Virus record (IMG/VR): IMGVR_UViG_3300017783_000054
Location: 1-43,758 of that record
Source: a virus
DNA: 43,758 nt
Direction: 5' to 3' (one strand)
A program made the translations under genes and the position numbers. Numbering within the stretch: position 1 is the stretch's first letter; each line of letters opens with the position of its first letter. The notes beneath the pieces were generated by a model. That model was given only the letters and a program-made list of their open reading frames with translations, made no database searches and had not been told where the DNA came from. Of the stretch, positions 3,521-43,758 are shown piece by piece.

Positions 3521-3521
3521 A

Positions 3522-4247: not shown

Positions 4248-4271
4248 TGCGCTTTGATTCTTCTATGAATC

Positions 4272-4279: not shown

Positions 4280-6065
4280 TCTCAGGGATCTCTTCTTCAT
4301 AGTCTTTCTCATAGTGTACTGGTGTTTTATGAATTGCAAACTCATTCTTACCAATAACCATTACAGCAACACCATTCCACCATCCCATACTATCCTCAAT
4401 CTCTTGAGAACGTAGGACTTTCTTGTATAGTACAGCGAAATTACGATCTTTGCACAGTTTATCTACTGCTGCCATCACACCATCAAAGTTACAATCATCC
4501 ACCACAAGTGTGAATGGATCAGTTGCAAACTGATAGAACTGTGTCAGGTTTTGATATGTTGCCTGTGGATCATGATCAGCATCATAGAAGATAACCTCAG
4601 GTGGATACTTAGCATTCAATTCATTGATTGTAAAGATGTCCTGATCTTTGAACAGTACAGCATTAGTTCCCATATACTTCTTACCATTCTCTTGGAATGT
4701 AGCAATAGGATCATCAATTGGTTCCCATGGAATATCATCACGAGCAGGTGCAATATTCTCTTGACTAAAGTTGTCAATAGCATATGCTTTTACATCATTG
4801 CCCATCATTGCTGCCCACAATGTGCTGCCAACATAACAACCAAGGTCAGCATATACTACTGACTCACCATCTAAAGACTTGCATAGGTTGTTGAGAAGAT
4901 GACGAACCTTATTAGATGATAGTCCAGGCACATCATATCCTTCCTCTACAAAGTTAGATTGATGCAGCAATGCGTCTTCTACTGCTTTCTGTGCTCTCAA
5001 TACTTGTGGATGTAACATTCTATTTTGTTTACGATAGTGTGCATCAACAACTGACTCACAGTAATTACAATCCCAGCACTCAAACTTACAGGTCTTGATC
5101 TTATCTCGCCAGATGTCAATAGGTTTATCTTCTAAACCAATATCCTCAGTATACTTATCAAACTCAGGGAATAACATTGGTTCATTCTTACTCCAACGTT
5201 CAACAATATCCATAGATTCTTTCAAACGCATCATATCTTCACGACCGTGCATCTTGAAACAATCAATACCATAATAGTTGATGAACTCCTCCCAATCTTC
5301 CTTCCATGGTGGTAGGTTTGCTGCTTTTAGTGAGGTAGAACTATCAAAGGTGTCCCACTTTTCGCATGACTGAATACTAATCTCATTGGCAAAGTATTGC
5401 ACATCATTATTTGGACCTTTAGAGCAGTTATATTGATAGTGCTCATCCATCATAGGACATCCACCCCAGCATCCTTCATTTGTCAGGATAGACAACTCTA
5501 CTGGCATACCTTCACGGATACAGTATTCTTTTGCCTGCTTGATTCTATACAAAGTATCTGCATCACGCATCAAATCGCGATCCAGATTGATGTAATGAAA
5601 CCCTGCCTTTGCTAGGTTTACAATATCACGAGGTTTGTCTACATTCCTCAGAATAGTATTCTTGATGAATAGATCTGGAAAGATCTTCTGGATCATACCA
5701 GATGCTACCCAATGAGTATGTGGTAGCGTAACAATACGAACACCAGCATCATAAATTGGTTGAAAGTATTGACACCATGTTCTCAAGTTATCCATCGATG
5801 GATCAACATGAATGTTATTGAAGGTGGCAGACAATGGAATATCACTGAGTTCACCAACCTTCAACGCATTGATAGTTGCTGCCTGATACATCTCAGACTC
5901 AGTATAAACATCCCCCATCGCATCTTGAATGAATGGAGGAATGCGACAGGTGAAATATAAATCCCTGATATATTGGTGATTCAGATTTAGAAACGGTACA
6001 AATGTCTCCAACATAAATCTCTCATCCATCTTGGGATTGATGGGGAGACTAAACACCTTCTTCAT
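4275..6065 (-). CDS. fusion of U32-like Fe-S TIM-barrel protein and SAM methyltransferase
   Basis: A 596-residue two-part protein. Residues about 30-345 resemble the peptidase U32/UbiU-like family: alternating beta strands (LSATFNNIHV, GVRIVTLPHTHW, YINLDRDL), then ELSILTNEGCWGGCPMMDE with C199, C203 and C214, and a second cluster C326-x3-C330-x2-C333-x2-C336. Such cysteines could hold a [4Fe-4S] cluster, as in UbiU/UbiV, RlhA and TrhP. Residues about 395-575 look like a class I SAM methyltransferase (TylF/Methyltransf_24-like): YADLGCYVGST at 405-415 is the SAM-binding loop, followed by IDNFSQ, VIFYDADHD at 491-499 and VVDDC at 521-525, which may bind metal. Family knowledge suggests an oxygen-independent hydroxylation or RNA/small-molecule modification coupled to O-methylation, but the substrate is unknown. 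Its stop is embedded in the next late promoter. Confidence 0.6.
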   Translation of the reverse strand: MKKVFSLPINPKMDERFMLETFVPFLNLNHQYIRDLYFTCRIPPFIQDAMGDVYTESEMYQAATINALKVGELSDIPLSATFNNIHVDPSMDNLRTWCQYFQPIYDAGVRIVTLPHTHWVASGMIQKIFPDLFIKNTILRNVDKPRDIVNLAKAGFHYINLDRDLMRDADTLYRIKQAKEYCIREGMPVELSILTNEGCWGGCPMMDEHYQYNCSKGPNNDVQYFANEISIQSCEKWDTFDSSTSLKAANLPPWKEDWEEFINYYGIDCFKMHGREDMMRLKESMDIVERWSKNEPMLFPEFDKYTEDIGLEDKPIDIWRDKIKTCKFECWDCNYCESVVDAHYRKQNRMLHPQVLRAQKAVEDALLHQSNFVEEGYDVPGLSSNKVRHLLNNLCKSLDGESVVYADLGCYVGSTLWAAMMGNDVKAYAIDNFSQENIAPARDDIPWEPIDDPIATFQENGKKYMGTNAVLFKDQDIFTINELNAKYPPEVIFYDADHDPQATYQNLTQFYQFATDPFTLVVDDCNFDGVMAAVDKLCKDRNFAVLYKKVLRSQEIEDSMGWWNGVAVMVIGKNEFAIHKTPVHYEKDYEEEIPET

Positions 6066-25387: not shown

Positions 25388-25395
25388 TATTTATA
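25388..25395 (-). promoter_or_regulatory. late promoter TATAAATA (perfect T4 consensus)
   Basis: Matches the T4 late consensus exactly, 28 nt before the ATG of the 439-aa fibre gene. The TAA in it is the stop of the halogenase-like gene. Confidence 0.85.
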
Positions 25396-26470
25396 CTGGT
25401 TTGTAGATGCGTCCTAGATTATCATACATGTTCATTACCGACTGAGATGTATGGAAACCATAAGTAACCATATTTGTACGGATGTCGCCATCAATTATGT
25501 TCTGAATAAATGAGTCGCTGAGTTCTAAACTCTTTGCATAATCCCAAAATGGCGTATCATACTTAGATCCAAACTTATAATGATACAGGATAAAGTTAGC
25601 ATTCTCTTTGATCGAGCGTTGCATGTCATACTCAATTTTCTGTATTGGTCTTTCTCCCCATACTGCTTCCATCGTAAGTTCAATCCACTTCATATATCCA
25701 GCAACAGATGTTGCTTCCATAGGTTCGATAAAGAAGTATCTGTTACCGTTTAGGAATACTCGGTTATCAATAATAGGACTTTTGGCATAATAGTTCCTGA
25801 ACGGGAATGTTGCAGTAATATTATCTACACCAAATTGTTCTTTGAAATTTACCTCTGCTTCAGTGTCACTAGTAATATCACCATTATATAAGTATCCATA
25901 TTGCACACGATCTTGCAAATGGATTACAAATGTCCATCCATCTGGTGTTGTAACAGTTCTAGTCCATGGAACATTATCTGGATTGGGCATGTTAGATAAC
26001 ATTACCCGATTCAAAGGGTTAGTAATTATATTATAGTCTGTATAATCTGTAGGAAATCCTCTACAGTCATACACATAGTCTGCGTCACATTCATCATAGG
26101 TCTCAATATGCTTCTGAGTTACCTTGAAGATGCCTGTATCGCATATAAAATCTTGAAATAGATGAGGATCTAGGTGCATACCTACCTCATCAAAGTTGAA
26201 TGGGTGGAACCATTCAGGTTTATCTCCCCACCCCTCATATTTGATACCAAACTTAGGAGTTGCTTTCCAAGGATTATCGTGCCAGTTTAGACTCCACCCA
26301 AATGTATCTGCCAGAAAACCTGTCAGACCAGGAAAGGATCCCGACCCAACAGGTTCTGTATCAATCTCTTCATCATAATACAGTTCGACTTCAGTCTTAG
26401 GTGAGTAATGTCGCCAATATAATGCTGTAAGGACTCCCGCTAGACCTTTGCCAAGAACTGCAACTTTCAT
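25391..26470 (-). CDS. flavin-dependent tryptophan halogenase-like protein
   Basis: About 359 residues from ATG 26470, which overlaps the talC stop as ATGA; a longer frame from 26494 is less likely. FAD-binding GKGLAG is at residues 7-12. K73 in ATPKFGIKYEGW aligns by eye with the catalytic Lys of PrnA-type enzymes. DCRGFPTD (about 135-142) and FFIEPMEATSVAG match the family landmarks DCxGF and FIEPLExxxI. The WxWxIP motif typical of halogenases is degenerate (W179-T-F-V-I-H184), and the protein is much shorter than PrnA (about 540 residues). It may therefore halogenate a different substrate or act as another flavin monooxygenase. Confidence 0.75.
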   Translation of the reverse strand: MKVAVLGKGLAGVLTALYWRHYSPKTEVELYYDEEIDTEPVGSGSFPGLTGFLADTFGWSLNWHDNPWKATPKFGIKYEGWGDKPEWFHPFNFDEVGMHLDPHLFQDFICDTGIFKVTQKHIETYDECDADYVYDCRGFPTDYTDYNIITNPLNRVMLSNMPNPDNVPWTRTVTTPDGWTFVIHLQDRVQYGYLYNGDITSDTEAEVNFKEQFGVDNITATFPFRNYYAKSPIIDNRVFLNGNRYFFIEPMEATSVAGYMKWIELTMEAVWGERPIQKIEYDMQRSIKENANFILYHYKFGSKYDTPFWDYAKSLELSDSFIQNIIDGDIRTNMVTYGFHTSQSVMNMYDNLGRIYKPV

Positions 26471-27129
26471 AGTTTTTCTTTGAGTGATTTCCAATCTTCT
26501 TTGAACTTTTCAAGACCAGCGTCTGTCAGTGCATGTTTATACATTTTCCAGAATAGTGCTGGTGGCATAGTAACCACATCAGCACCATATAAGAATGCTT
26601 TCTCGATATGCTCTACAGATCTGGTCGATGCTGCTAGCACCTCAGTATCGTGAACTGCATGAGTTTCAAACGTTCCCACAATACCCTTGATAAGACCTAA
26701 AGCATCAAATCTTTGATCTTCTACTCTACCAATAAATGGAGATACAAAAGAAGCACCTGCTTTTGCTGCTAGAATTGCTTGTGAGATTGAGAATACTAGA
26801 GTTACGTTTACTCCAACTCCGAAGTCGGATAGATTCTTACATGCCAAAAGACCATCATAGTTACATGGCACTTTGATGGTAATATTTTGTGAAATATGAT
26901 AGAAAGGTTCTGCTTCTATAAGCATATCTTCTGCATTCTCTGAATTTACTTCTGCGCTAATACTAGCGTATTGTCCTTCAAAGATATCTGCAATTTCTTT
27001 GATTACTTCTTTAGGTTCTTTACCTTGAGCAAGCATCAAAGATGGATTTGTGGTTACACCGTCAATCAATCCTGTTTTATATGCTGACCTGATAAGATCG
27101 GGATCAGATGTATCTAAAAAGATTTTCAT
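26467..27129 (-). CDS. talC: transaldolase (TalC / F6P-aldolase-like)
   Basis: 220 residues, the short TalC/FSA-type class found in cyanophages. It transfers a dihydroxyacetone unit between sugar phosphates in the non-oxidative pentose phosphate pathway. Visible features: MKIFLDTSDP at the N-terminus, DGVTTNPSL at 23-31, NITIKVP at 82-88 with K86 as the Schiff-base lysine, and SPFIGRVED. It complements gnd and cp12 in this window, redirecting carbon from the Calvin cycle to NADPH and ribose synthesis. The 153-nt region upstream has a TTGACA (27183..27178), but no good -10 follows at 17 nt; TATGAT (27169..27164) is an alternative -10 without a consensus -35. Confidence 0.96.
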   Translation of the reverse strand: MKIFLDTSDPDLIRSAYKTGLIDGVTTNPSLMLAQGKEPKEVIKEIADIFEGQYASISAEVNSENAEDMLIEAEPFYHISQNITIKVPCNYDGLLACKNLSDFGVGVNVTLVFSISQAILAAKAGASFVSPFIGRVEDQRFDALGLIKGIVGTFETHAVHDTEVLAASTRSVEHIEKAFLYGADVVTMPPALFWKMYKHALTDAGLEKFKEDWKSLKEKL

Positions 27130-28892: not shown

Positions 28893-28921
28893 ATCATAGC
28901 ACACCCAGAGAGCATTGTCAA
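28893..28921 (-). promoter_or_regulatory. strong sigma70-like promoter
   Basis: TTGACA (28921..28916), 17-nt spacer, TATGAT (28898..28893): 6/6 and 5/6 matches. The TGA in TTGACA is the stop codon of gp5. The -10 ends 23 nt before the ATG at 28869. This is the best host-type promoter in the window. Confidence 0.85.
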
Positions 28922-31401
28922 TTCAGGTTGATCGCACCACCCAGGATGTTTACGATTGCACCCTTCATCGTGACGGTTGCACCACCAGTGATATCCACTG
29001 CAGCACTTGCTTTTAGTAGGACCGCACCAGCAGCAACACTAGCAACAAATGCGCCAGCACCAACCTTGAACAAAGCACCACCTGCTTTACAGGTTACCAA
29101 GAATGGACCTGGTGTAACAACAGAGAACCTAGGAATAGGATCAATTGATGGTGATGGACCTAGGATAATATCATAGGGTCCATTACACTGCCAGAATACA
29201 CCCGATTTTGCCTTAGGCAATGGTGGTACGTTTACAAAGTGCCACTGAGCAGATGAATATGTTGTCAATGTATTGTTAGCACTCATAACAATATCACCAC
29301 CACGAATATTCACTGATGGAGCATTGATCTCAGTATTACCTGTTGGAGCACCAACAGAGGTGTTCATAGTATTGATTTGACCATCAGTAGCATTCAATTT
29401 GAATGTACCACCAGATGAACTGATATCTACATCAGATTCAAATTTGATTTGGTGCTTTTGAATCTTATCTGCTTTACCAGGATTTTTACCATTGGCATCT
29501 TTCTGCTGTGGAGCACCAACAGCAGTAACCATCATGGCACCACCTACCTCAAGATGGAAGTTACCTGTCACTTTTAGGTGATAATCACCATTGATAGTAT
29601 GAACTTCATCGCCTCGGATGTTATAACAAAGATCTTTAGCAACATCAACGGTATATGCGTTTGCATATTGACTATGGTCACCTGCTACTGGTTTCTTCTC
29701 GGTTTTACTTTTATCTCTAGAAAGTGCTTTCTTTTCATCTGCTCCTGCTTCTGTAGAAAGATACTTCTTATATGCATTATCATCGACATAAATTGATGTA
29801 TGCACAGTACCAGAAGGAGTTCTTTCAGTCTGGGATTGTCTACCAGGAACACCAGTGTGTTGTCTCCAACCACCACTCATGAAAGTTTCTGCCTGAGTCA
29901 GATAAGGACTAGCATCGTTATAAATTTGTGAGACAAAATCTGATGCAACATTACGACTACCTTGAGCAAATCCACTTCCTAAGTCACCACATTTACGGTT
30001 TCCTAATTTATCTGCAAGTCCTTCTGCATCACAATAAGTAGTACCTAGGAATGGAATGAATGCCTTTGTTCTATTATCTTGTCTGGTTCTATCACACCCA
30101 AAATCAAAGAGGTTGAACAAGAACAAAACAATTTGCAAGAACCCTTCAAAACCAACTGACGCAAGATCAAATCCATCAGCAAAAATTGTAGATCCTTCTT
30201 TCCAAGTATCAATAATCTTCTTTGCAGCACCAATACCAGAAAGAATACCTTCAGCAGCAGATACAATATTCTTTACAGCACACAGAAGACTATCCATTGC
30301 TGACAAAATGCCTTGCCCAAGTTTATCAATACCCTGATTGATAAAATCGCCAGCAAAGTCCAATGCTTTATCGAGAGCAGATTCAATAAATGAACTGAAT
30401 GGTGACATCACCATGTCAATAAAACTACCGATCTGATCATCAAGAGTACAGATCTGAGACAAAATCAACTGAATACCAGTTTTCACAATTGCCATTGTTG
30501 CAGTTGGAATACCAGTAAATGATGCAATCATAGCACCACCAGAAGTTAGTTTTCCTGCAAGTTCTGTCAAAAACTCTCGCATAGCAGCAATTGCTTCACC
30601 GCCAATCGCCGCAATTGCGTTTTCTACAGATCCAATGATATTATCAAGTGCAACTGGAGCACCTGTAGCAACACTGACATATCCATTACCTTGAGACTTG
30701 ATTCCAGACAGTTCTTTTGCTGCTGTATCAAGAACAGATTCTAGATGCACCGTAAGGGTCTTAGAAGGTCCACCAACGCCGTCTGCAGCAGCGACTGGGG
30801 GTCCAATACTCTTTGCAGCGCCTGCCGTACCAGTTTTGACGCCAACGCCCTGCGGGTTCGCTGGTGCGCTTTGAGAGTCCTCTTTAGTTCCTGCAGTTTG
30901 GACTGAATTATTTCTATTTGCGTTTTGCTCGTCCCCCTCCATAGTTGCCGTATTATTGGAACCTGAGGCAGTAGTGTAATTGACTACTTTACGCATTTCG
31001 CCGCCAGTTAGGGCAAAAAGTGGTTCCTTACGTGATTCTCCACCTTTGATAGTACGAAGAACTCCCATAACACAAGGCATCTGTGCTTCTTCACCGTCTA
31101 GGAAGAAACCTAGAACAATAGCACCAGATTGCAATTGACCAGAAGACTGTCCCTGACCATCATTACCTGGTTGGTTTGTAGGTTGTAAAACTAACGCCCA
31201 TGGCAAATCATCTGTTGGTAGTGTCTCCATAGAACCACCATCAGCATCTGTATACCAACCCAAAATTCTTACTTTGACACGGTTGATCTGCAGGGGATCT
31301 TGGTTATCTTCAACCTCACCGATCCACCATTGCATTCCGTCCTTACCAAAGAAGTCATTCTGACGTTCTTTTACATATCCTTCAACTTGGGACGTTGCCA
31401 T
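28918..31401 (-). CDS. gp5-like baseplate central spike/hub protein without lysozyme domain
   Basis: 827 residues. About 24-115 form the gp5/VgrG OB-fold (WWIGEVEDNQDPLQINRVKV, PWALVLQP, GAIVLGFFLDGE, CVMGVL). In T4 gp5 a lysozyme domain follows; here there is instead a Ser/Gly/Asn linker and a long amphipathic helical, partly hydrophobic region (about 225-450), including FLQIVLFLFNLFDF. The C-terminus has the spike beta-helix repeat (GDYHLKVTGNFHLEVGG, V.G at 8-residue spacing) and an Asn/Gly/Ala-rich needle. The lysozyme function is probably supplied by the two large proteins upstream. It is preceded by a late promoter and the repeated hairpin. Confidence 0.85.
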   Translation of the reverse strand: MATSQVEGYVKERQNDFFGKDGMQWWIGEVEDNQDPLQINRVKVRILGWYTDADGGSMETLPTDDLPWALVLQPTNQPGNDGQGQSSGQLQSGAIVLGFFLDGEEAQMPCVMGVLRTIKGGESRKEPLFALTGGEMRKVVNYTTASGSNNTATMEGDEQNANRNNSVQTAGTKEDSQSAPANPQGVGVKTGTAGAAKSIGPPVAAADGVGGPSKTLTVHLESVLDTAAKELSGIKSQGNGYVSVATGAPVALDNIIGSVENAIAAIGGEAIAAMREFLTELAGKLTSGGAMIASFTGIPTATMAIVKTGIQLILSQICTLDDQIGSFIDMVMSPFSSFIESALDKALDFAGDFINQGIDKLGQGILSAMDSLLCAVKNIVSAAEGILSGIGAAKKIIDTWKEGSTIFADGFDLASVGFEGFLQIVLFLFNLFDFGCDRTRQDNRTKAFIPFLGTTYCDAEGLADKLGNRKCGDLGSGFAQGSRNVASDFVSQIYNDASPYLTQAETFMSGGWRQHTGVPGRQSQTERTPSGTVHTSIYVDDNAYKKYLSTEAGADEKKALSRDKSKTEKKPVAGDHSQYANAYTVDVAKDLCYNIRGDEVHTINGDYHLKVTGNFHLEVGGAMMVTAVGAPQQKDANGKNPGKADKIQKHQIKFESDVDISSSGGTFKLNATDGQINTMNTSVGAPTGNTEINAPSVNIRGGDIVMSANNTLTTYSSAQWHFVNVPPLPKAKSGVFWQCNGPYDIILGPSPSIDPIPRFSVVTPGPFLVTCKAGGALFKVGAGAFVASVAAGAVLLKASAAVDITGGATVTMKGAIVNILGGAINLN

Positions 31402-32197: not shown

Positions 32198-32223
32198 ATA
32201 ATATTGATACCCTCTAGTGTCAA
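32195..32223 (-). promoter_or_regulatory. sigma70-like promoter for cp12-cpeT
   Basis: TTGACA (32223..32218), 17-nt spacer, TATACT (32200..32195): 6/6 and 5/6. The TGA in TTGACA is the gp27 stop codon. The -10 ends 30 nt before the cp12 ATG. Confidence 0.8.
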
Positions 32224-34010
32224 CGGTTTTTGTTCTTACGCCGACGATTGCGTCTCTTGTTCTTCTTATTGTTCCGTTTCTTAGTACGAGTTCCTCCAGA
32301 ACCCTTGCGGCCACCGCGATTCTTTCTCCGTGCCTTTCTATCCTTACGACGGATCGCTCTCCGTCCCGCCGTAGACCTCTTCTTGTTACGCCGCTTTCTT
32401 CTTTCGAGATTGCTGACATTCTTACCACGTTTTTTAGATCTCCGCCGTCTCTTCTTCCTGCTACCCAGTCCACGTCCAACGGCAGGTCTTGCACCACGGC
32501 GTCTAAGTCCTCTACGCTTCTTACGAACACGTCCCTTACGTTTCCGTCTACCACTAGAATTACCAGCAATAGTTGCGGTACTCTCATTATTTTTAGAACT
32601 TGCACCACCAGAATCAGGTGTAGAATCTCTAGTCAATAGAAGAATCGTTATCATTCTTCCATCATGATACTTATGCTCAGCACTAGCAATGATCCAAAGA
32701 CCACTCCAACGTTGATCTGTGGGAATATTTGTACTGTTTGGTTTGTCTGGTAGTGCCTTCGGGATCGTGATATGAATACCATGACCTGCCATCAAATCTA
32801 AGTTACCTGGTACAGTAACTTGAAGTTGTTGATATAAAAGACTCTTCAGTCTTAGGAAATTGTATGATCCTGCTTCAACAATAGACTTCACACTCTGTCC
32901 ACCAATTGGAGCAGACTGTTTAGATTCTTTCTTCTCCATGTTGCCATAACCACGAGTCATGACTGGTTTCAGTCTTACTCGTCTAGGAGTATCAACCATC
33001 GATGGTTCACCCTGAGGTGCCAACTTACTCATATCAAATGGTGGTTTTCCTTTTGGATTGACATGTGACATGTCTTTCCAGTTTCTTCTAATAGCATACT
33101 CATCCAATGCTAATGGTAGATCACCTGATTGATCTCCACTAGAACTCTTAGCAAGATCAACAGGATCAAATCCTTGTGTATATCCTGCCCATGTACCATG
33201 CCTGAGATTTTCTAGCAGGTTATAAGACTTAGGAAATGAAATCGTTTGGATAATAAAGTCTTTAGTTTCTTCTGCCATACTTGGCAGGTTTGCTTGACCA
33301 TATCCATAGTAATACAGTTGTGGTAGTGGTCTCTTACCAGCACCTTTCGATTCGCCTTTCGGTTTCTGCTTATTTGCATCTTCAATCATCGCATCGATTG
33401 TGATGTAATGATATCCAGATGTGTTCTCGTAGAAAATATATCCACTCTGACGTAGTTTACCTGTCTGTTTCTTGCGAAGAGACTTCTCTGCTAGGTAATT
33501 GATAGCATTGAATGGTCTCCAGTTTGGACAAACATAAGAAAACTTCTCATCAGTTGGTTCTGAATACAACTCTTTGTCGGTGTTGATATAGTCTGAACCT
33601 AGATACTCACCAACATAATCATCAGTCTTTTTACCTTGGAATGAACCAAATACATTGACAAGTTCATTCCTCAGAAACTCTTCTGAACAGAGGTGTAAAT
33701 TATATACGTTACGTTTTTCAAATCTAACACGATCAGTGATCTTATAAAGTTGAAGATTATACTCAACTTTCTTTCCACTAACATCGTTTTCTAATGTAAG
33801 GAAGAATGTTTCACCACCTGCTAATCTACTGATGACATCACCAGAGTCATCAAATGCTATAATTGCTCTGATAGAAGGGGAATCAATCCCCTCCATGATT
33901 CTAACTTCGTTTACATACTCATCAAACTTATTAGTTTTGTTATCTGGTCCTGCAACGCCTTCAATCTCAAGACTAAAACCCGTTGTGCCCTGTCCTCCTT
34001 TTACGTCCAT
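32220..34010 (-). CDS. gp27-like baseplate hub protein with polybasic C-terminal tail
   Basis: 596 residues. Residues 1 to about 484 look like the gp27/tail-hub family: GFSLEIEGV, YVNEVRIMEGIDSPSI, ETFFLTLEND, VYNLHLCSEEFLRNE, FEN/YENTSGYHYITID and a C-terminal beta domain (LQVTVPGNLDLMAGHGIHIT, GLWIIASAEHKYHDGRMITI). The last roughly 112 residues (about 485-596) are an extra tail in which 63 are Lys or Arg, mixed with Gly, Asn and Ser and nearly free of hydrophobic residues. T4 gp27 (about 390 aa) has no such tail. The ATG overlaps the upstream stop as TGATG. The tail could contact DNA, membrane or the tape region inside the hub. Confidence 0.8.
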   Translation of the reverse strand: MDVKGGQGTTGFSLEIEGVAGPDNKTNKFDEYVNEVRIMEGIDSPSIRAIIAFDDSGDVISRLAGGETFFLTLENDVSGKKVEYNLQLYKITDRVRFEKRNVYNLHLCSEEFLRNELVNVFGSFQGKKTDDYVGEYLGSDYINTDKELYSEPTDEKFSYVCPNWRPFNAINYLAEKSLRKKQTGKLRQSGYIFYENTSGYHYITIDAMIEDANKQKPKGESKGAGKRPLPQLYYYGYGQANLPSMAEETKDFIIQTISFPKSYNLLENLRHGTWAGYTQGFDPVDLAKSSSGDQSGDLPLALDEYAIRRNWKDMSHVNPKGKPPFDMSKLAPQGEPSMVDTPRRVRLKPVMTRGYGNMEKKESKQSAPIGGQSVKSIVEAGSYNFLRLKSLLYQQLQVTVPGNLDLMAGHGIHITIPKALPDKPNSTNIPTDQRWSGLWIIASAEHKYHDGRMITILLLTRDSTPDSGGASSKNNESTATIAGNSSGRRKRKGRVRKKRRGLRRRGARPAVGRGLGSRKKRRRRSKKRGKNVSNLERRKRRNKKRSTAGRRAIRRKDRKARRKNRGGRKGSGGTRTKKRNNKKNKRRNRRRKNKNR

Positions 34011-37000
34011 CAGAAACCTCCAGCAAACAGACCAAATCCAGGACGATAATTGTATATATCATCACTAGATAACCGACCACCGTCGCCACCTTTCGGGATA
34101 GGAACTTTGACTGGTTTATCTGGTATTGGTTTAGACATTGCTTGTACTTGTTTTTGTGCTGCTTGATTCTGCTGTGATGTTTGTGCAATTGCGGCAGCTG
34201 CTCCTGTTTTCTGTTTTGTTTTTACCGCACTCTTTGCTGTAGCAACATTATTAGTTTGAAGTTGTACTTGCCGTGGTTGTACAGTAGGAGGTTTGATATT
34301 TGCAGGTACTACCTCCCCTTTCGGTTCAGGACTGCCACCTTTTACCAAACGTTCCAGAGAACGTTCCTTCTGCTTGTACGCTCTATATTGATTTTCTAAA
34401 TTTGCTGCACTGACTAGACCACCAGTACGAGGATCTTTGAACATCCCGAGTGATTTTGGTCCTACTGGTGAGCTCATCGCTGCCCTAATGTAATCTCTTT
34501 GATGCTTGAGTTGCATCATCTGTTGTTGGAATTGTTTTTTGAATGCTGGACTCTGCTGAGTACCACCAGCAGAGAGACTTTTGACTAACTTGATAGGTCC
34601 ACCGTGTGATGCAAAAGAAATACCAGCACGCTTACTAGTTCCAGTTTCCATCACACCTGCTTCATCATTACGACGCCAGTTATTGATACCACCGTTATGA
34701 CTTGCTAATCTAGTACGATATGCATCAATAACTGGGGCATAATTACCACTGCTCAGTGACTGTTTCACAGTATCTTTTATACCAGCACCAGACAAAGATC
34801 CATAGTTGAAGACTACAGACTCTAGTCCTGCCTTTACTCTATTCGGTGCCTTATTATAGTCACTGCCAACCTCATCGGTGAGACGCTTGCGGTGCTCAAT
34901 AATATGCTTAGACTTGATCCAATATGCTTCATCGTCAGTAATCGTGTCACCCTTCTGAACCTTACCAGACTTACGGAATCCCTCTGGATAGTAAGTTGCA
35001 CCAATACCAATCGTAGGAATCTCCCACCCATAATTAGCATCAGCATATGCCTTTAGTCTTAGACCTTCATAATTACCTAGCAGTGCTGCAAACTTCTTAT
35101 CAAATCCACCACTGACTGATGTTGAACCACCTGCTAGTTCTCCCGTTGCAGAGTCTCTGGTTCCAGCTTCAGTACCAGGACCTGCAGTAGATCCATCTTC
35201 TGTACCCCCGAATGTAGCTGCACTGAGTTTTCCACCTGTATACTTTTTATTACCATCAACTGCATGAGCACCCTTTAGTAAGAGGTTACCCAGGTTAGCA
35301 AGCAATGACTCGACAGACTCTTTTGGTTTTACATCAGCACCAGTAGAGTTTGTGCCACCATCCTGTGATGTTTCGCTTGTAGTTTGTACATCACTATTGA
35401 TTGATCCACCAGGAGCAACACCACCTTTACCAGGTACAACAATCCTACCAGTCCCAGGACCACGGTCAACCCAGATGCCATCCATCAATGACTTAGGATA
35501 TACAACACCCTTACCTTTAGTATCTGATGCACTAGTGAGATTACTTTGTGCCCATCCACCCTTGGGAGTTGGGTTCAGTTTTCCATAGGGATCGTTTACA
35601 ACGATGTCATTACCTCGGTAACCAATACCAGCAACCATGTGACCACTGCCACTGTTATGTTGCAGACCTAGGACAACAGGTTTACCTGCATTGATTGCTG
35701 ATTTATATGCCTTATATGATCCAAAATCACCACCAGATGCAGGAACACCAAACTTTTTCATTGCTGGTGGGTGTGCTCCCATACTAGTGGACTTACCATG
35801 CTGCGAACGAACCTTATTATATTCGTCAGGCATGACATTCTTTCCTAAGATTGCCGAGACAACCATTGCAGCAGAAGTGGAGAAACATTGTGAGTCTCCA
35901 CCAGTACCTAGAGCATCAGTTTTGTTTGATCTCTGGTTGAAATATGGTACGCTTAGGATTTTACCACCGCCAGCAGGAGGTGCTTTTTCTTCAGTATTCT
36001 TCGATTGACCTTCTGCAATCTTTTCTGCTGGAATCTCTGCACCCCCAGATGCCTTCAGTGTTCTACCTAAAGGACCACCATTAGAAAAGAAACCTGCATG
36101 TTGTGCTTCAGAATTACGACGTGCTGTTAGACCTTTATTACCTCTAGTAGCAGGAGTGTCATAAGGAACAACGAATGCAGACCCACCTGGTTTTGAGTAC
36201 ACCATTTCGGTGCCATGACCGATGAATGATGTTGACTGTCCACCATCTAGTGATACAGGATACCCTGTCTGTGGTCCTTGAATGATACCACCGTTAGCAA
36301 ACCCACGAAGAGATCCACCTGTTGCCATCTTAGGCATAGCAGTAGCTTGCTCTCCCTGATCAAAGAAAGATCTACCACCAAGAATATTTCCAAACCCTGC
36401 CTGAGCAGAATTGAAAGCACTAATAGCACCTTCTTTCAGATTTGTTGCTGCTTGCCTAGGATCTTTTATAGCCTCTTGAACGCCGCGGCCAATATTACCT
36501 ACCTGTTGACCTGCATATTCTTGTAGATTTTTAGGTGGTTCTGGAGCAGGTTGAGGACTTCCTGCATTCTGTCCTGTTGGTGCAGTTGGTTCTTGTGTAG
36601 TGCCAACACTTTCTGCTGGTCCACCCGCTCGCGTATCTCCTGCTGCAGCAGTTGTGGCAAGTCCAAACGCTGATGTTAGTTGATCTAATTTTGATTGTAT
36701 CTCAGGACTAAGACCTGCAATCTCACTTTCCTGCTCATCTTCCTGATCAGTTAGATCTTCTTCTGCCTGTTGCAGATCCTTACCAGTGACACCATCATTA
36801 TTCATGGCATCTAATGCCATACCAGTGCCAACGATAGCACCACTGAATAGCAATGCCTTACCAGCTTTACTACCAAATAGTTTACCTAATCCTCTTCTCA
36901 GTCCTTTAGAAGTAGCAAGTTTTAGTAACTTCTTACTAAACCACACCAAAGATTTGAAGAAACCTTTGAATACTTTGAAGACCATCTTGACGACGAACTT

Positions 37001-37627
37001 GATCGCCTTGCCGCCAAATAGTTTCTTGAATGCTAAGAATCCTGTTCCTAATGCAATCAAGAACAATCCACCCTTCAGGATCTCCTTCCAGAAAGGCATC
37101 TCAGTAAACTTAGCAATCAAATCTAGGGTAGTCATTACGATACCCGTAGTCACATTGAATAGGAACTTACCTACACCAATGATACCTGCAATAATTTTTT
37201 GTAACTTCTCACGATTCTCTTCCTTGCTCATCCACTTCATCAGTGGAACTAGAACAAATAATTTGAACATCCCACCGAGTAGATCTAGGATACTACCAGC
37301 ACCCTTTGCTACTAGTGCTGCAATACCACCGAGAACCATACCACCGAATGGATCTCTTTTCTTTTTCTGTACTCCAGGTTTATCTCTTCTCTGATTATCC
37401 TTTTCAATTTTCTGCTGTTTTAGAAAGTTCTGTGCAGATATATTTTTGAACTTTTCAAACTCAGAAGCAATAGCATTGACAGAAGTGCCTAAGTTATTGA
37501 GACCTTCAACAACTTTATCATTACCTACCGAAACTATTCCAGGTTGACTTTCAACCCTTCCTACAAATTTGTAGAAATTGATCTTTTGCTTACGCTTTTC
37601 CTTATTGACTTTTTGATCTGCCATCAA
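34010..37627 (-). CDS. giant tail protein with C39-like peptidase and GH24 lysozyme domains (1205 aa)
   Basis: N-terminal helical part with hydrophobic segments (about 95-135, 150-200) related to the same region of the next protein, then low-complexity linkers. Residues about 555-735 resemble a C39_2/papain-like peptidase: KILSVPYFNQRSN, SQCFSTSAAM with C581, SGHMVAGIGY with H663, and IVVNDPYG with N678/D679. Residues about 840-1000 match phage lysozyme GH24: E854 in NYEGLRLKAYAD, D863, and T872 in IPTIGIGATYYPEG. A role in cutting peptide and glycan bonds of peptidoglycan during DNA entry is likely. It is coupled by ATGA to the upstream gene and by TGATG to gp27, placing it in the hub/tape operon. 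Confidence 0.8.
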   Translation of the reverse strand: MMADQKVNKEKRKQKINFYKFVGRVESQPGIVSVGNDKVVEGLNNLGTSVNAIASEFEKFKNISAQNFLKQQKIEKDNQRRDKPGVQKKKRDPFGGMVLGGIAALVAKGAGSILDLLGGMFKLFVLVPLMKWMSKEENREKLQKIIAGIIGVGKFLFNVTTGIVMTTLDLIAKFTEMPFWKEILKGGLFLIALGTGFLAFKKLFGGKAIKFVVKMVFKVFKGFFKSLVWFSKKLLKLATSKGLRRGLGKLFGSKAGKALLFSGAIVGTGMALDAMNNDGVTGKDLQQAEEDLTDQEDEQESEIAGLSPEIQSKLDQLTSAFGLATTAAAGDTRAGGPAESVGTTQEPTAPTGQNAGSPQPAPEPPKNLQEYAGQQVGNIGRGVQEAIKDPRQAATNLKEGAISAFNSAQAGFGNILGGRSFFDQGEQATAMPKMATGGSLRGFANGGIIQGPQTGYPVSLDGGQSTSFIGHGTEMVYSKPGGSAFVVPYDTPATRGNKGLTARRNSEAQHAGFFSNGGPLGRTLKASGGAEIPAEKIAEGQSKNTEEKAPPAGGGKILSVPYFNQRSNKTDALGTGGDSQCFSTSAAMVVSAILGKNVMPDEYNKVRSQHGKSTSMGAHPPAMKKFGVPASGGDFGSYKAYKSAINAGKPVVLGLQHNSGSGHMVAGIGYRGNDIVVNDPYGKLNPTPKGGWAQSNLTSASDTKGKGVVYPKSLMDGIWVDRGPGTGRIVVPGKGGVAPGGSINSDVQTTSETSQDGGTNSTGADVKPKESVESLLANLGNLLLKGAHAVDGNKKYTGGKLSAATFGGTEDGSTAGPGTEAGTRDSATGELAGGSTSVSGGFDKKFAALLGNYEGLRLKAYADANYGWEIPTIGIGATYYPEGFRKSGKVQKGDTITDDEAYWIKSKHIIEHRKRLTDEVGSDYNKAPNRVKAGLESVVFNYGSLSGAGIKDTVKQSLSSGNYAPVIDAYRTRLASHNGGINNWRRNDEAGVMETGTSKRAGISFASHGGPIKLVKSLSAGGTQQSPAFKKQFQQQMMQLKHQRDYIRAAMSSPVGPKSLGMFKDPRTGGLVSAANLENQYRAYKQKERSLERLVKGGSPEPKGEVVPANIKPPTVQPRQVQLQTNNVATAKSAVKTKQKTGAAAAIAQTSQQNQAAQKQVQAMSKPIPDKPVKVPIPKGGDGGRLSSDDIYNYRPGFGLFAGGF

Positions 37628-40600
37628 TAATTCTCAAACCTGATTGAGTGATCGGCCTTTCCAGTAACTGTAGCAATTACTCTGGTGCCCCGTGTTCTAT
37701 TTATTGGCATTGGAATGACCTTTGGTATTGGAATGACTACCAAATCTTCCTCTTCCTTCTCATGAATAGCAGCAACAGACTGAGATGCTTTAGCAATACT
37801 ATTTACTCTACCACCACCAGACATTTTTGCTAAGAAACTCTTAGCATATTTTATTCTAGGTCCATCATGTGCTACACCTGCACGTTCCCAGGTTTTACGG
37901 AAATCTACTGTAGCATTTGCAACGTCAGTCTTTTTCTTGAACTCTCCCCAAGATCCAGATGTGCCAGTACCTTTCTTGATAAATCCACCGTTACCTGCCA
38001 TCAACTCAGACATCAGGAACTTGTAGTTGTCTGCATTACTTGGGATCTTATTATAGTCACCACCATAAGAAGCGATGAACTTATCATATCTATCACCAGG
38101 TGCAGAGTTAGTCCACTGTGCCCATCCATATCCCTTTCTAACTGTACCTTGAGGCCATGGTTTACTGTTCTTACCAAAAGGTCCACCTTCTCTGATACCA
38201 GGTATAAATCCAGCAGATTCATGTGCCATGTTACCAGAGATCGCAGCTGCTGCTTGTTTAGTAGCACCAGTGTCACTCATAATCTTTTTAGAAATGTCAA
38301 CACCTTTTGCAGTGACACTACCATTGACTGCTAATGTTCCAGGATCACCTGTATATCCACCTCCACTACTAATACTATTACCTGAATCACTGTCAGTGGT
38401 AGAAGCGGCTGATTTATCTGGTGGTGTAGGAGGTGTTAGAGCATTAGGGAACAATGATTTCATTACTCCCAGTAATATAGTTGCAGCACCACCAGTAGGA
38501 TCTGCTGCTTTCAATACCTTCATACCAATTTCAGTTGGAGGTGGAGGACTTGCTTTTTTATCTAAGTCCTTCTGCTTCTCAACTGTCTCGGATGTTCTTT
38601 TATGAACAGGTTGCTGCTTTAGGAGTGCTGCTTCAGATGCAGCAACAACTCGTTTTTCAACTTCTGCATGGGAAAGACCTTCTGCCCTTGCTTCTGTCCT
38701 TGCTTTCTGTGCTGCTTGCCATACTACCAAGTTAGAAGAACCAGTCTTGGTAGGATCAAGTACAGATCCACCCATAGACATCTTCACATTACGAACTAAA
38801 CCACCTGCAGATCTCTCTGGTACATCATCCTCTGGAGTTGCAGCATTTAGTTTTTTCTCATCCACATTGAATGCATCCATAAATGATACATCTTGTTTGG
38901 GAATGCCAATAACATCAGCAAGTTTATCTGCTAACCATTCTCCACCCCATTGTGTAGCACCAGTGACAACACCAGCAAGGATAGCAGCACCAATACCACC
39001 AGTACCAGCACCAATAGCACCCAAGATAGCAGTACCAGCAACCAAACCTGCAATAGAACCAGCAAGTTTTAGTGCAACACGACGAGGATCTTGACCCGCC
39101 TTCAATTCCATTGCAGCAAACAATGTCTCGACAATAATGTCTAGAGGACCAATTTTGAATGGCGCTGCATCAAGAGCGTTCTTTGTACCTTGGACTGCAG
39201 GTTTTGCTATATTTACAAACTTCTTGAAGAGACCTTCTCCACCTTCTTTTCCTGCCTTACCTTTGAATTTATCAATAAAGAACTTGGTAACAGGGTTCCC
39301 TTCAATTAGATCTTTTGCAGTAGCCTTCAGTGGTGCTAGAAATTTATCAACAACAAACTCTTTTCCTTTTGCAGCAAGGTTTGTAATATTATCACTTAGT
39401 TTATTCCAGTTAGTAGAAACTGTTTGTGGGAATTCTTGTATTCCCTTCAGGAAACTCTCTAGACCCTCCTTATAACTTTTGTATTTGTCAATGGCGAATT
39501 CACTAGTGATGTCCCATGCACCCTTAGCAACATCAATTCCCTGCCCAACTTTCTGACCGAACTTGGTATTAGAAAACCACTTTAGGAGATCACTACCACC
39601 TTGGGCAACAGGATCAATAAATCTTTTCCTTGCCGCGTCTCTAGTTTCTGATAATGCTTGCCTAGGATCTGCTCTAAATCCTTCTACTATATCAAATGCC
39701 TTTTTACCAGCATTTTGTAGTGGTTTTGTGAGTTCATCAGCACGGGTGAGTAATCCTTCACCACCCTTTTTGATGACATCTAATCCATCTGTCAATCGTT
39801 TTAGTACACTAGGCGGCAAACTGTTCTTGAATGCCTCAACTGCAGCTGCAACTGCCTTTGCAATCTTAGGTTTGACTACATTTTTGAAAAAGTTTGCACC
39901 CCATCTAGCAATCTTTGCTGCAAGATCACTAATGAATGTGCCAACAATACTGAATACAAGTAAAACTTTCTTCAACCAACGTCCTTTCAGACGTTTGAAC
40001 ATGATCCTAACTCTTTGTCTTAGTTTTCCTAACCAAGTCTTATTTTTTAGTTTGTTGCCAGGTTTGTTTGGTCCATCTGCATCAGGTTTACTACGATCTA
40101 AACCACCACCATCATCTGATGACATCATTCCTAGAAGATCTAGGATACCACCCATCAAACTGAATGGGTTCAGGAACATCGCTAAACCCTTGAGAGCAAG
40201 GAATCCTACCAGAAGTTGACCGAATCCCATTATGGATTCCCAGACCCCTCCCAGGTCCCCCTTCATGATCTTACTAATACCACCGAACAGTCCTGCTAGA
40301 CCGTCCATAAGATTAGTTACACCAAATGTACCCCATTTCCATAGGAAATCAAAGATTACTTTGGTAAACTCTACAAGTTTCTTTACTTTTTCTTGATTTT
40401 TTTCATCTGAAAACCATTTCATGATGCCAATAATGGCAGCAAACTTGATGAATGGTGATATCAGATTCCAGATAGGTGTCAGCAATTGCTGCAAAAAACT
40501 ACCTTTCTTCTTTAGTTTCTTATCCTTCTTCCCTACTTCCTTACCAACTTTCTTTTCATCTATAGGTTTGACTGCAGCACCACGCTCTTGACTTGCTTCT

Positions 40601-40869
40601 TTTTGGTCAAGTTGTCTGTCTCTATCTGCTCTACGTTCTTCAACCTCTTTACTTCTTAGAGATATTGCACGAACTTCCTCAATAGATGTCAGTCCTCGGA
40701 TTGAATTGTAAATACTATCCGTTGCTGCACCAAGTCTATTGATGCCAAGAACAATCTTACCGCTAGGCAGTTTTTTGGCGTTCGGCGTTTTCACGCCACT
40801 AGACTTCAAGGTCTCCTTATCCTTGGAAGTAAGACTTGGGTTTACAAATTTGTAACCTAGCTTTGCCAT
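37624..40869 (-). CDS. giant tail protein with C-terminal tail lysozyme domain (1081 aa)
   Basis: The N-terminus (SGKIVLGINRLGAATDSIYN, then a charged coiled coil and IGIMKWFSDEKNQEKVKKLV) is paralogous to the 1205-aa protein. The middle is helical with hydrophobic segments (about 210-250, 600-640: a Gly/Ala-rich membrane-like stretch). Residues about 856-1015 resemble the phage tail lysozyme domain: AAAAISGNMAHESAGFIPG with E884 as likely catalytic Glu, and RKGYGWAQWTNSAPG. This suggests a tape-measure or hub protein that enters the cell wall on injection. An AATAAATA late-like motif inside its end (37698-37705) is about 70 nt before the next gene and is not convincing as a promoter. Confidence 0.75.
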   Translation of the reverse strand: MAKLGYKFVNPSLTSKDKETLKSSGVKTPNAKKLPSGKIVLGINRLGAATDSIYNSIRGLTSIEEVRAISLRSKEVEERRADRDRQLDQKEASQERGAAVKPIDEKKVGKEVGKKDKKLKKKGSFLQQLLTPIWNLISPFIKFAAIIGIMKWFSDEKNQEKVKKLVEFTKVIFDFLWKWGTFGVTNLMDGLAGLFGGISKIMKGDLGGVWESIMGFGQLLVGFLALKGLAMFLNPFSLMGGILDLLGMMSSDDGGGLDRSKPDADGPNKPGNKLKNKTWLGKLRQRVRIMFKRLKGRWLKKVLLVFSIVGTFISDLAAKIARWGANFFKNVVKPKIAKAVAAAVEAFKNSLPPSVLKRLTDGLDVIKKGGEGLLTRADELTKPLQNAGKKAFDIVEGFRADPRQALSETRDAARKRFIDPVAQGGSDLLKWFSNTKFGQKVGQGIDVAKGAWDITSEFAIDKYKSYKEGLESFLKGIQEFPQTVSTNWNKLSDNITNLAAKGKEFVVDKFLAPLKATAKDLIEGNPVTKFFIDKFKGKAGKEGGEGLFKKFVNIAKPAVQGTKNALDAAPFKIGPLDIIVETLFAAMELKAGQDPRRVALKLAGSIAGLVAGTAILGAIGAGTGGIGAAILAGVVTGATQWGGEWLADKLADVIGIPKQDVSFMDAFNVDEKKLNAATPEDDVPERSAGGLVRNVKMSMGGSVLDPTKTGSSNLVVWQAAQKARTEARAEGLSHAEVEKRVVAASEAALLKQQPVHKRTSETVEKQKDLDKKASPPPPTEIGMKVLKAADPTGGAATILLGVMKSLFPNALTPPTPPDKSAASTTDSDSGNSISSGGGYTGDPGTLAVNGSVTAKGVDISKKIMSDTGATKQAAAAISGNMAHESAGFIPGIREGGPFGKNSKPWPQGTVRKGYGWAQWTNSAPGDRYDKFIASYGGDYNKIPSNADNYKFLMSELMAGNGGFIKKGTGTSGSWGEFKKKTDVANATVDFRKTWERAGVAHDGPRIKYAKSFLAKMSGGGRVNSIAKASQSVAAIHEKEEEDLVVIPIPKVIPMPINRTRGTRVIATVTGKADHSIRFENY

Positions 40870-41053: not shown

Positions 41054-41773
41054 CTACCCGAAAAAAGACGCTAGTCCCTCCAGGGTCACCGTAGAAGTCA
41101 CATTAGTATTGGGGTTGACAACTTCAACGTCATGCATCAGTTTAGGCATGGTTTCAAAGAACTTTTGTACCTTCTGAAACTGTTCAGAAGTCAGTTGCTC
41201 AAGAAACTCAATCTTTTCTTGCTTGGTAGAATCAGAACCAGGATAGACTTGATTCTCATCATAAATGTTATCAATACAATCAGATGCAAGGTCAAAGACT
41301 TGAGTGATCTCGTCTCGCTCATCATCACCAGTAATATTCATCTTGACAAAGGTGTCCAAGGAAGGATACCTCATAACCATACCCATAGTATCAGATAGTT
41401 TGATAGTCTTATCGTGCTCATCATCTTCTGAGATTTCAATTGCAGCAAGATTGATCTCAACTTGCACTTCAGTTTCACCATCGTCGGGTGCAGTCAGAAG
41501 AACCTTAGATGATTCACCAACAGACTTAGAACGAATCTTCAAGAAGATGTATTCAATGTCAAACGTTGGCAAAGAATCAATAGGAACTGTAATATTAGTA
41601 CAGTCTTTGATGATCTGTTTGATAGTTTCAATCGTACTATTTTCATCTGATGTTTCCATCGCCATCAGTAAGAGTTTCTCTTCTTTCACAAGAAATGGTC
41701 TAAACTTTATGTTTTTACCAGTCGAAGGAAGTTTCAAAGTATACTGTGGAGTAGCAATCTTTGGTAATGCCAT
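41054..41773 (-). CDS. gp26-like baseplate hub subunit
   Basis: 239 residues. KLPSTGKNIKFRPFLVKEEK, LLLMAMETSDENSTIETIKQ, LPTFDIEYIFLKIRSKSVGE and QLTSEQFQKVQKFFETMP are the landmarks of the T4 gp26 family (PF12322-like). It acts in central baseplate hub formation. It starts 22 nt after a late promoter, downstream of the second copy of the GGCGGA hairpin, and heads the operon leading to gp27. Confidence 0.85.
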   Translation of the reverse strand: MALPKIATPQYTLKLPSTGKNIKFRPFLVKEEKLLLMAMETSDENSTIETIKQIIKDCTNITVPIDSLPTFDIEYIFLKIRSKSVGESSKVLLTAPDDGETEVQVEINLAAIEISEDDEHDKTIKLSDTMGMVMRYPSLDTFVKMNITGDDERDEITQVFDLASDCIDNIYDENQVYPGSDSTKQEKIEFLEQLTSEQFQKVQKFFETMPKLMHDVEVVNPNTNVTSTVTLEGLASFFG

Positions 41774-41866: not shown

Positions 41867-42730
41867 TCAATTTCGATCTCGGTTTCGTTTCCTTCTCTCC
41901 CTCCTATTTCTCTTAGACTTATTAGATCTAGGTCCTTTGTTTTTATTGTTTGACTTACGCTGACTACGTGTTCGGTCCTTTATTTTCTTATTCTTTTTGG
42001 TCTTCCCACCAAATTTAGGATCAGCATAGAATCTATAGCGTTCATATGCAAAGGTAACATCCAATGTTACTAGTTCACCAGGGTTATTAGTGAACTGTAA
42101 GGTGCCAACAGATTTAGGGAACACATTATACATGTGCCACATACCTACAACTTTGTTGTACTTAGGCCATGACCTTTCATCACCACCTGCACGCTCATAT
42201 ACTTTCCTGTCTGCAGGAATTATATCTCTTTGACTTCCACGTTCAAACTTATAGATGAAGAATAATGGAGCAACATACTCATTATAGTAATCAACATACT
42301 GGTTGGCATCGTTTGCCATGATGGACATCCATCTTTCAAACACCAATAGGTTGACGTATGATCTAGGAATCAAAAACTGTACACTGATCTCAGAGAATGT
42401 ACTACCAGTTGCATAACTAATCTCAGATCCGACTGCTCGGTATGAACCAGTCGTAACTTGTTTTGTTGGTGTATTGACCTCGTTTGCATACAGAGAAAAG
42501 ATTCTCATGTGATCAATATACTTATCCTTGAACAAACCCCCATGCAATCCACCTTGACCAAGACCACCCGATAGTGCTCTAGGATAGGTCATTTGAAAAT
42601 GCCAGAGTTGTGAAGTAGATACTCCATACTTCTCAGGTCCCATGACATGGGACATAAAGTTCTGTAGAGATCCACCAAGTGTAGACTCTGCTGCTTCAGC
42701 TGATGATCTAAATCGATTTATCTGTGGCAT
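41867..42730 (-). CDS. gp54-like tail tube initiator with polybasic C-terminal tail
   Basis: 287 residues. About 40-240 carry the tail-tube fold: SEISVQFLIPRSYVNLLVFERWM and GTLQFTNNPGELVTLDVTFAYE, closely resembling the end of the T4 gp54 tube domain (TTFDVTFAYR). gp54 starts polymerisation of the tail tube on the baseplate. The final 45 residues (about 243-287) hold 24 Lys/Arg and almost no hydrophobic residues, a tail similar in composition to that on gp27. The ATG shares a base with the gp4 stop (TAATG). Confidence 0.75.
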   Translation of the reverse strand: MPQINRFRSSAEAAESTLGGSLQNFMSHVMGPEKYGVSTSQLWHFQMTYPRALSGGLGQGGLHGGLFKDKYIDHMRIFSLYANEVNTPTKQVTTGSYRAVGSEISYATGSTFSEISVQFLIPRSYVNLLVFERWMSIMANDANQYVDYYNEYVAPLFFIYKFERGSQRDIIPADRKVYERAGGDERSWPKYNKVVGMWHMYNVFPKSVGTLQFTNNPGELVTLDVTFAYERYRFYADPKFGGKTKKNKKIKDRTRSQRKSNNKNKGPRSNKSKRNRRERRKRNRDRN

Positions 42731-43152
42731 TAGACTTTGAGCTCCTTCTCAGTTATCAACATAAACTCCATGGAATTATCATTACAAAATTCTCGTGCTG
42801 CTTTCCACTTTGCTTGATTGACAGCGTAAGTTACAACTTCATTGATATATCTTTTGGTATGTCTTTTTTGTGTCTTAGGTTCTTGCGTTTGATAAAACGG
42901 TTTTACCTCAACCACATACTTACCACGTCCTTTTATTTTCACATAAAAATCTGGAAAATATCTGTGCTTCCTTCCATCAGCAGGTGATGTGTATGGAATA
43001 AAAAACTCTTCACTGCCCCATTCTAGGACTGACGGTGTAATATCACACCATTTCATAAACTTATATTCCCAAGATGATCTATAAACAATGTTTGTTGTAT
43101 CACCTTTATACTTCATCGGAAAAGACGGTCGGTACTTTCCCTGGTATCTCAT
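42730..43152 (-). CDS. gp4-like head completion nuclease
   Basis: 140 residues from ATG 43152. Y-KGDTTNIVYRSSWEYKFMKW near the N-terminus and HRYFPDFYVK...KYVVEVKP are the gp4 landmarks; D68, E82 and K84 form a PD-ExK nuclease signature. In T4, gp4 completes the packaged head before tail joining. A longer frame from 43167 exists, but the late promoter at 43178-43184 would then leave almost no leader; 43152 gives the usual 25-nt spacing. gp4 next to a tail gene follows T4 gene order. Confidence 0.85.
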   Translation of the reverse strand: MRYQGKYRPSFPMKYKGDTTNIVYRSSWEYKFMKWCDITPSVLEWGSEEFFIPYTSPADGRKHRYFPDFYVKIKGRGKYVVEVKPFYQTQEPKTQKRHTKRYINEVVTYAVNQAKWKAAREFCNDNSMEFMLITEKELKV

Positions 43153-43154
43153 CA

Positions 43155-43161
43155 CTAAATA
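43155..43161 (+). promoter_or_regulatory. late promoter CTAAATA (rightward)
   Basis: Ends 31 nt before the gp48-like ATG at 43193. It faces the leftward promoter at 43178-43184 as an inverted repeat, CTAAATA-N16-TATTTAG. Confidence 0.65.
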
Positions 43162-43177
43162 GTACATAGACTGAAAG

Positions 43178-43192: not shown

Positions 43193-43758
43193 ATGGCTAA
43201 TCTAATATATCCTGTTGGCGTGCCTGTGCCTGGTGACTTTGATGATTATAATGAGGACTCGCCTACTGGTGCAGTCGATTACTTGAGGATTCGTAGATTT
43301 CGTGATAAGAAAGCAACCAATGCTAAGAACAAAGGTTTCTTTTATAACAGGGCAGGTGGTTATCAAGGAGGAAGGAAACAAAATGGTACTATTTGCTTCT
43401 TAGCATGTCCTCCTGACATCAAAACAAATTATGTAAGTAAATATAGTGAGGTCAAGTTTGGTGCTGTAGGTATGGCTGCTGCTGGAATGTTAGCAGAAGG
43501 TTCTAATTTGACTACCGAGAGTGCTACAGCATCTTTGCAGAAGTTGGCAGGAGATCAACTACCTCAGACTGTCCTGGATACCATCTCAAAAGGAACCCAG
43601 GCCGTTGGTAATGCACTTGGATCACAATTTAGTGGCGGAGCTAACGACTTACTTGCAGTCTCTCAAGGTAAAATCTTCAACCCATATGAAGAGAATATAT
43701 TTCAAGGTATGTCATTTAGATCGCATACATTCTCATTCAAAATGGTAGCACGAAGTGA
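43193..43758 (+). CDS. gp48-like baseplate tail tube cap protein, partial
   Basis: The only real plus-strand gene. It opens MANLIYPVGVPVPGDFDDYN and remains open to the window end (188 codons). DYLRIRRFRDKK, then a helical Ala/Gly/Ser region, and NPYEENIFQGMSFRSHTFSF (about residues 163-182) resemble gp48/tail-tube-cap proteins of T4-like cyanophages. gp48 joins the tape/hub to the tail tube. It diverges from gp4 with two late promoters between them. The C-terminal tube domain lies outside the window. Confidence 0.7.
   Translation, partial: MANLIYPVGVPVPGDFDDYNEDSPTGAVDYLRIRRFRDKKATNAKNKGFFYNRAGGYQGGRKQNGTICFLACPPDIKTNYVSKYSEVKFGAVGMAAAGMLAEGSNLTTESATASLQKLAGDQLPQTVLDTISKGTQAVGNALGSQFSGGANDLLAVSQGKIFNPYEENIFQGMSFRSHTFSFKMVARS

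Follow-up and report, generated by a model that had tools for sequence, protein, structure and literature searches.

The analysed window is a viral contig of 43.8 kb, here taken over its full length, whose closest named relatives are the Synechococcus phages S-ShM2, S-RIM14, and S-SSM2; the records of S-ShM2 and S-RIM14 are assigned to the genus Ahtivirus, family Kyanoviridae. On its minus strand, genes for gp4, a gp54-like protein, gp26, a gp51-like protein, two large tape-like proteins, a gp27-like protein, CpeT, and gp5 follow each other in this order (Table 1). The gene for gp53 is situated just beyond gp48, past the contig end, a position that was seen in relatives. Based on gene order, size, and hydrophobic segments, the 1081-aa and 1205-aa proteins are presumed to be tape measure proteins. 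The former carries a tail lysozyme domain, while its neighbor combines a C39-type peptidase and a phage lysozyme domain. Elsewhere in the window, a tryptophan halogenase-like gene (25391-27129, minus strand) adjoins a transaldolase gene. In S-ShM2, the interval 61318-79914 (L022/L023) encodes a single annotated structural protein of ~6,200 aa.

Table 1. Position and assignment of hub, tube, and neighboring features in the window
Feature	Position	Strand	Basis
gp54-like tail tube initiator, 287 aa	41867..42730	-	phrog_45 tail tube, E 3e-52; fold match; neighbors gp4 and gp26
gp54 basic C-terminal tail, residues 243-287, 24 K/R, net ~+21	41867..42004	-	
gp54 tail-tube core, ~residues 1-241, ordinary charge	42007..42730	-	
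gp27-like baseplate hub, 596 aa	32220..34010	-	phrog_350; model matches T4 gp27
gp27 basic C-terminal tail, ~residues 469-596, 64 K/R, invariant motif RKGRVRKKRRGL	32220..32606	-	
gp26-like hub assembly protein	41054..41773	-	PF12322
Tape-like/ejected protein, 1081 aa, net +53	37624..40869	-	
Tape-like/ejected protein, 1205 aa, lysozyme and C39 domains, net +48	34010..37627	-	
gp4 head closure protein, upstream neighbor of gp54	42730..43167	-	phrog_218
gp48 tail tube cap, N-terminal part; contig end cuts gene	43193..43758	+	
gp5, near gp27-like gene	28918-31401	-	

A preliminary description of the window had assigned the 287-aa protein as the tail tube initiator gp54. This assignment was corroborated by its phrog_45 membership and by an AlphaFold model (mean pLDDT 74, higher in the core) whose best matches were tail-tube chains. 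The second- and third-ranked Foldseek matches, 9f4b_BQ and 9f4a_BQ, are gp54 chains by sequence relation to T4 gp54. A search of PDB chains by sequence yielded no match, a Pfam search detected no domain and hence no LysM domain as in Mu gp43, and alignment with T4 gp54 by hhalign gave a probability of 0.7%, although undetectable similarity does not exclude homology. No direct sequence relation to T4 gp54, T4 gp48, or PDB chains was detected. In S-ShM2, gp48 is encoded separately from gp54 (3309-4268; PF11091, phrog_230) and an annotated gp19 occurs elsewhere in the genome (112613-113320). Because similarity to T4 gp54 was undetectable by sequence, the protein was assigned by its fold, by exclusion, and by its place in the gene order; it is very probably gp54. 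In T4, gp54 forms a hexameric ring between gp48 and gp19. The window protein resembles it in its tail-tube fold, in having a gene separate from gp48, and in belonging to the hub/tube gene set, but differs in its lack of detectable sequence similarity and in its basic tail. The S-ShM2 record (GU071096, L009) splits gp54 into two annotated parts (4731-5039 and 5074-5589, within 4731-5589), whereas S-RIM14 has one intact ORF; the split is a frameshift or sequencing error.

The model of the gp27-like protein matched the T4 gp27 chains 9mkb_iC, 2z6b_D, and 1k28_D (E 4e-17 to 2e-16) over nearly the whole T4 chain, and this fold search supports its assignment as gp27. T4 gp27 is a trimer bound to gp5. 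Proteins of the tailed clade described below differ from T4 gp27 by an additional basic tail of 128-164 aa, which was missing from all cyanophage homologues inspected outside this clade. In the window, this companion tail, also noted previously, was confirmed, with 64 Lys/Arg in ~128 residues. The motif RKGRVRKKRRGL was invariant across every tailed gp27 homologue aligned.

The last 45 residues of the gp54-like protein contain 24 Lys/Arg, exactly the number counted in the preliminary description. They are encoded by 41870-42004, followed by the stop codon at 41867-41869, so that the end originally placed at 42002 was 2 nt short. The same description held that such tails are not expected by chance, and this was upheld: at a background of ~10.5% K/R, the binomial probability of 24 K/R in 45 residues is 1.3e-12 per 45-aa window and that of the gp27 tail is far lower. 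When 40-aa stretches were ranked by net charge, the gp27 and gp54 tails came first and second in the window, and the same two tails were the most basic stretches among the 359 ORFs of the complete S-ShM2 genome (179.6 kb). The gp54 tails of four related loci (L005, L006, L007, and L026) contain 20-29 K/R; in L007 and L026, identity to the window tail drops to 36-47%, with net charge retained. Codons for K/R in the tails are mixed, which rules out a DNA-repeat artefact as their origin, and dN/dS was ~0.2-0.6 in the tails versus mostly 0.1-0.3 in the cores. At the level of sequence, the basic tails thus look like selected protein features. Near-neutral drift, by which weakly constrained terminal extensions would have turned basic with little function, would be consistent with the large differences in length and sequence of gp54 C-terminal extensions across genera. 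However, the signature of purifying selection, the retention of charge at low tail identity, the invariant motif, and the occurrence of tails on two proteins of one clade make drift very improbable. AGA is one of the Arg codons used by the basic tails; the only annotated tRNA of S-ShM2 is a tRNA-Arg for AGA (164010-164082; L024 44611-44683).

The distribution of the tails was analyzed in loci (numbered with the prefix L) from isolate genomes and IMG/VR contigs, of which 181 contained gp54, 145 a gp27 homologue with a complete end, and 93 both genes. Among these 93 loci, 11 encoded both tails, 82 neither, and none a single tail. The 11 two-tailed loci include several near-copies or overlapping loci and represent three distinct lineages (window-like, S-ShM2/S-RIM14-like, and L106). 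In a tree of gp27 cores, the tailed proteins formed one branch (SH-aLRT 99), to which the untailed L108 and L109 were closest. The gp54 of two sister contigs, L109 and L211, stops 9 residues past the core. Outside the tailed clade, gp27 ends at the core and gp54 is usually extended at its C-terminus by a neutral or acidic segment (median 48 aa, net -3). The tails are thus confined to one clade, consisting of Ahtivirus and close relatives, and sequence comparison indicates that both were, most simply, gained together in a single event. A correlation between the two tails among homologues, which the preliminary description had suggested checking, is evident in the counts, but it reflects one clade and one gain, so that their co-occurrence does not amount to several independent signs of coupling. 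These sequences show the gp54 tail to be a real, selected, lineage-specific polycationic extension, most simply gained once with the longer gp27 tail. In several other cyanophages (L010, L220, and L175), gp54 ends in a common motif, NPR(A/G)LLDxRQRIGPGN, which suggests that the gp54 C-terminus may have a binding partner in other clades too.

Within the clade, pairing of the tails was weakened by L106, which has nearly lost its gp54 tail (19 residues, +6) and has the longest gp27 tail (164 residues, +89). A frameshift masking a longer L106 gp54 tail was rejected, as the DNA past the gp54 stop codon contains no basic frame that could encode a hidden tail. With gp27 and gp54 set at three and six copies, as in T4 (PMC3004832), the summed tail charge was 309 for the window, 273 for L005, and 303 for L106. 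The tails of gp54 and gp27 thus look like a common pool of charge, with three lineages being a small sample for this comparison.

The hub channel of T4 has a length of ~60 Å. Its width is 25 Å (PMC3004832), and we estimated the volume of the hub cavity, which also holds the tape, at ~29,500 cubic ångströms, versus ~51,500 for three 128-residue gp27 tails. In solved structures, C-terminal additions to tube proteins sit outside the tube (PMC8718954). In Mu and simple myophages, C-terminal domains of the tube initiator pass down to the wedge on the outside (PMC11915804), and an initiator C-terminal domain located outside, towards the wedge, has also been described elsewhere (PMC10966104). Because solved C-terminal extensions lie outside and three gp27 tails would overfill the cavity, a location of the tails outside the channel appears, by analogy, likelier. 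The earlier proposal that both tails line one passage was consequently not borne out. In its wider form, with both tails in the lumen as a lining or plug acting on tape or DNA, that reading fits the rings that gp27 and gp54 form around the channel, the usually negative tube lumens of phages (PMC8718954), and the Mu hub C-terminus, which bends inward at the distal end, near spike and tape (PMC11915804). It is nevertheless highly unlikely in view of the structural and volume arguments and of the net positive charge of both tape-like proteins (+53 and +48). This charge also disfavors neutralization of the tape, another of the roles suggested beforehand. A search for literature on lysine-rich tails in the context of tape or ejection returned no reports.

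A scan of S-ShM2 for acidic stretches led to the wedge protein gp53 as a candidate partner of the tails. In gp53, the most acidic 40-mer had a charge of -13 to -15 in 10/10 loci of the tailed clade, as compared to -5 to -11 in 137 other gp53 proteins, -9 in the sister L211, and -8 in the sisters L213/L183. The patch occupies one aligned site, which reads DYDDNEDLEDDGAPL in S-ShM2, AYEEHEELEEDGAPL in the genome of L106, and AYQNNSDITTGNQGAPL in the L109 sister. As gp53 was picked post hoc, after inspection of approximately ten neighbor proteins, and its negative charge falls short of the positive charge on the tails, confidence in a link between them is less than even, and the association of gp53 with the tails may be due to chance. 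Other neighbors showed different patterns. The acidity of gp26 was -8.4 to -9.2 per 100 aa in the tailed clade versus -4.6 and -6.8 in sisters, although other clades span similar values. As a putative chaperone of hub assembly, gp26 might keep the basic tails shielded while the hub is built. No acidic shift relative to the sisters was present in gp4, the gp54 core, or the gp27 core of the tailed clade. More basic gp48 proteins occurred in part of the tailed clade only, and the basic N-terminal stretch of gp48 was not retained as a module part, since it is missing from the remainder. The 1081-aa tape-like protein contains a basic amphipathic stretch at residues ~268-308, WLGKLRQRVRIMFKRLKGRWLKKVL, which could be membrane-active; it was rejected as a third co-gained part because the untailed L109 has the same stretch. 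Similarly, an acidic stretch of the 1205-aa protein was rejected as a partner, since it also occurs in the untailed L108 and, more weakly, in L109. The presence of both stretches in untailed sisters points to charged segments as a frequent feature of the operon.

Support for a position of gp53 near the tails comes from cyanophage A-1(L), in which a LysM protein likened by the authors to T4 gp53 occupies the hub-wedge gap, where it is in contact with both hub and initiator (PMC10966104). This protein, gp16, is comparable to gp53 of the tailed clade as a candidate hub-wedge partner, here acidic; a charged-tail link does not feature in the part of the description of gp16 on which the comparison is based. 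A second parallel is the tube initiator of Mu, gp43 (N protein), which combines a tube-like domain with a C-terminal extension and is reported to stabilize the wedge-hub connection (PMC11915804). In Mu, this extension is a folded, helix-rich LysM domain, whereas gp54 of the window ends in a 45-aa basic tail with a low-confidence model, and the Pfam search detected no C-terminal LysM domain of the gp43 type.

Because gp53 is acidic in the tailed clade and the A-1(L) gp53-like protein fills the hub-wedge gap, the best-supported specific mechanism is an outward-facing, electrostatic link from hub and tube to wedge via the basic tails, which we put forward tentatively and with less than even confidence. 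The tails would be placed outside the channel, between the tube/hub and the wedge ring. During assembly, they may be shielded by gp26 and, in the unfired tail, they would form a flexible, charge-based connection to acidic surfaces on partner proteins, mainly gp53. Upon sheath contraction, departure of the tube from the wedges could free the tails and expose them at the penetrating tip, where they might hold anionic envelope components or emerging DNA. The charges are mismatched for such a link, with ~+300 for the tails versus ~-80 for the gp53 patches (six copies), and its evolutionary support consists of one clade and one event. The fuller scheme of a clade-specific baseplate charge module, in which the gp53 patch latches the tails at rest and firing frees ~300 positive charges at the tip, is somewhat unlikely.

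Two further readings bear on the freed tails. Outside tails might bind anionic host lipids or glycans after contraction, thereby docking or sealing the tube end. Such envelope contact would be consistent with the location of gp27 and gp54 at the leading tube end, with the suitability of long polycations for anionic surfaces, and with the proposal that T4 gp27 acts as a terminal pore, perhaps meeting a receptor in the cytoplasmic membrane (PMC3004832). It is nonetheless an unlikely explanation, as it leaves the acidic shift of gp53 unaccounted for and the tails contain few hydrophobic residues. Alternatively, the tails might bind phage DNA leaving the tube or after its entry, in line with their charge and length, which resemble those of nucleic-acid-binding tails, and with the invariant motif RKGRVRKKRRGL in the gp27 tail; the Mu initiator gp43 accompanies the DNA into the host and circularizes it (PMC11915804). 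T4 DNA, however, probably does not pass the neck before ejection (PMC3004832), which argues against this reading and disfavors retention of DNA in the virion, a role considered in the preliminary description. In addition, gp54 lacks a Pfam domain such as the LysM domain of gp43, and L106 retains only a short gp54 tail. DNA handling was consequently judged rather unlikely.

The three-protein charge pattern of gp54, gp27, and gp53 is a new feature of otherwise known proteins. Direct testing is possible in the cultured phages S-ShM2, S-RIM14, and S-SSM2, with the tail-less sister viruses as a natural comparison. If the electrostatic link is real, tube, hub, and wedge would be coupled in this clade by flexible charged tails instead of folded interfaces, and this could reveal how firing or entry through the envelope is adjusted in a single phage lineage.
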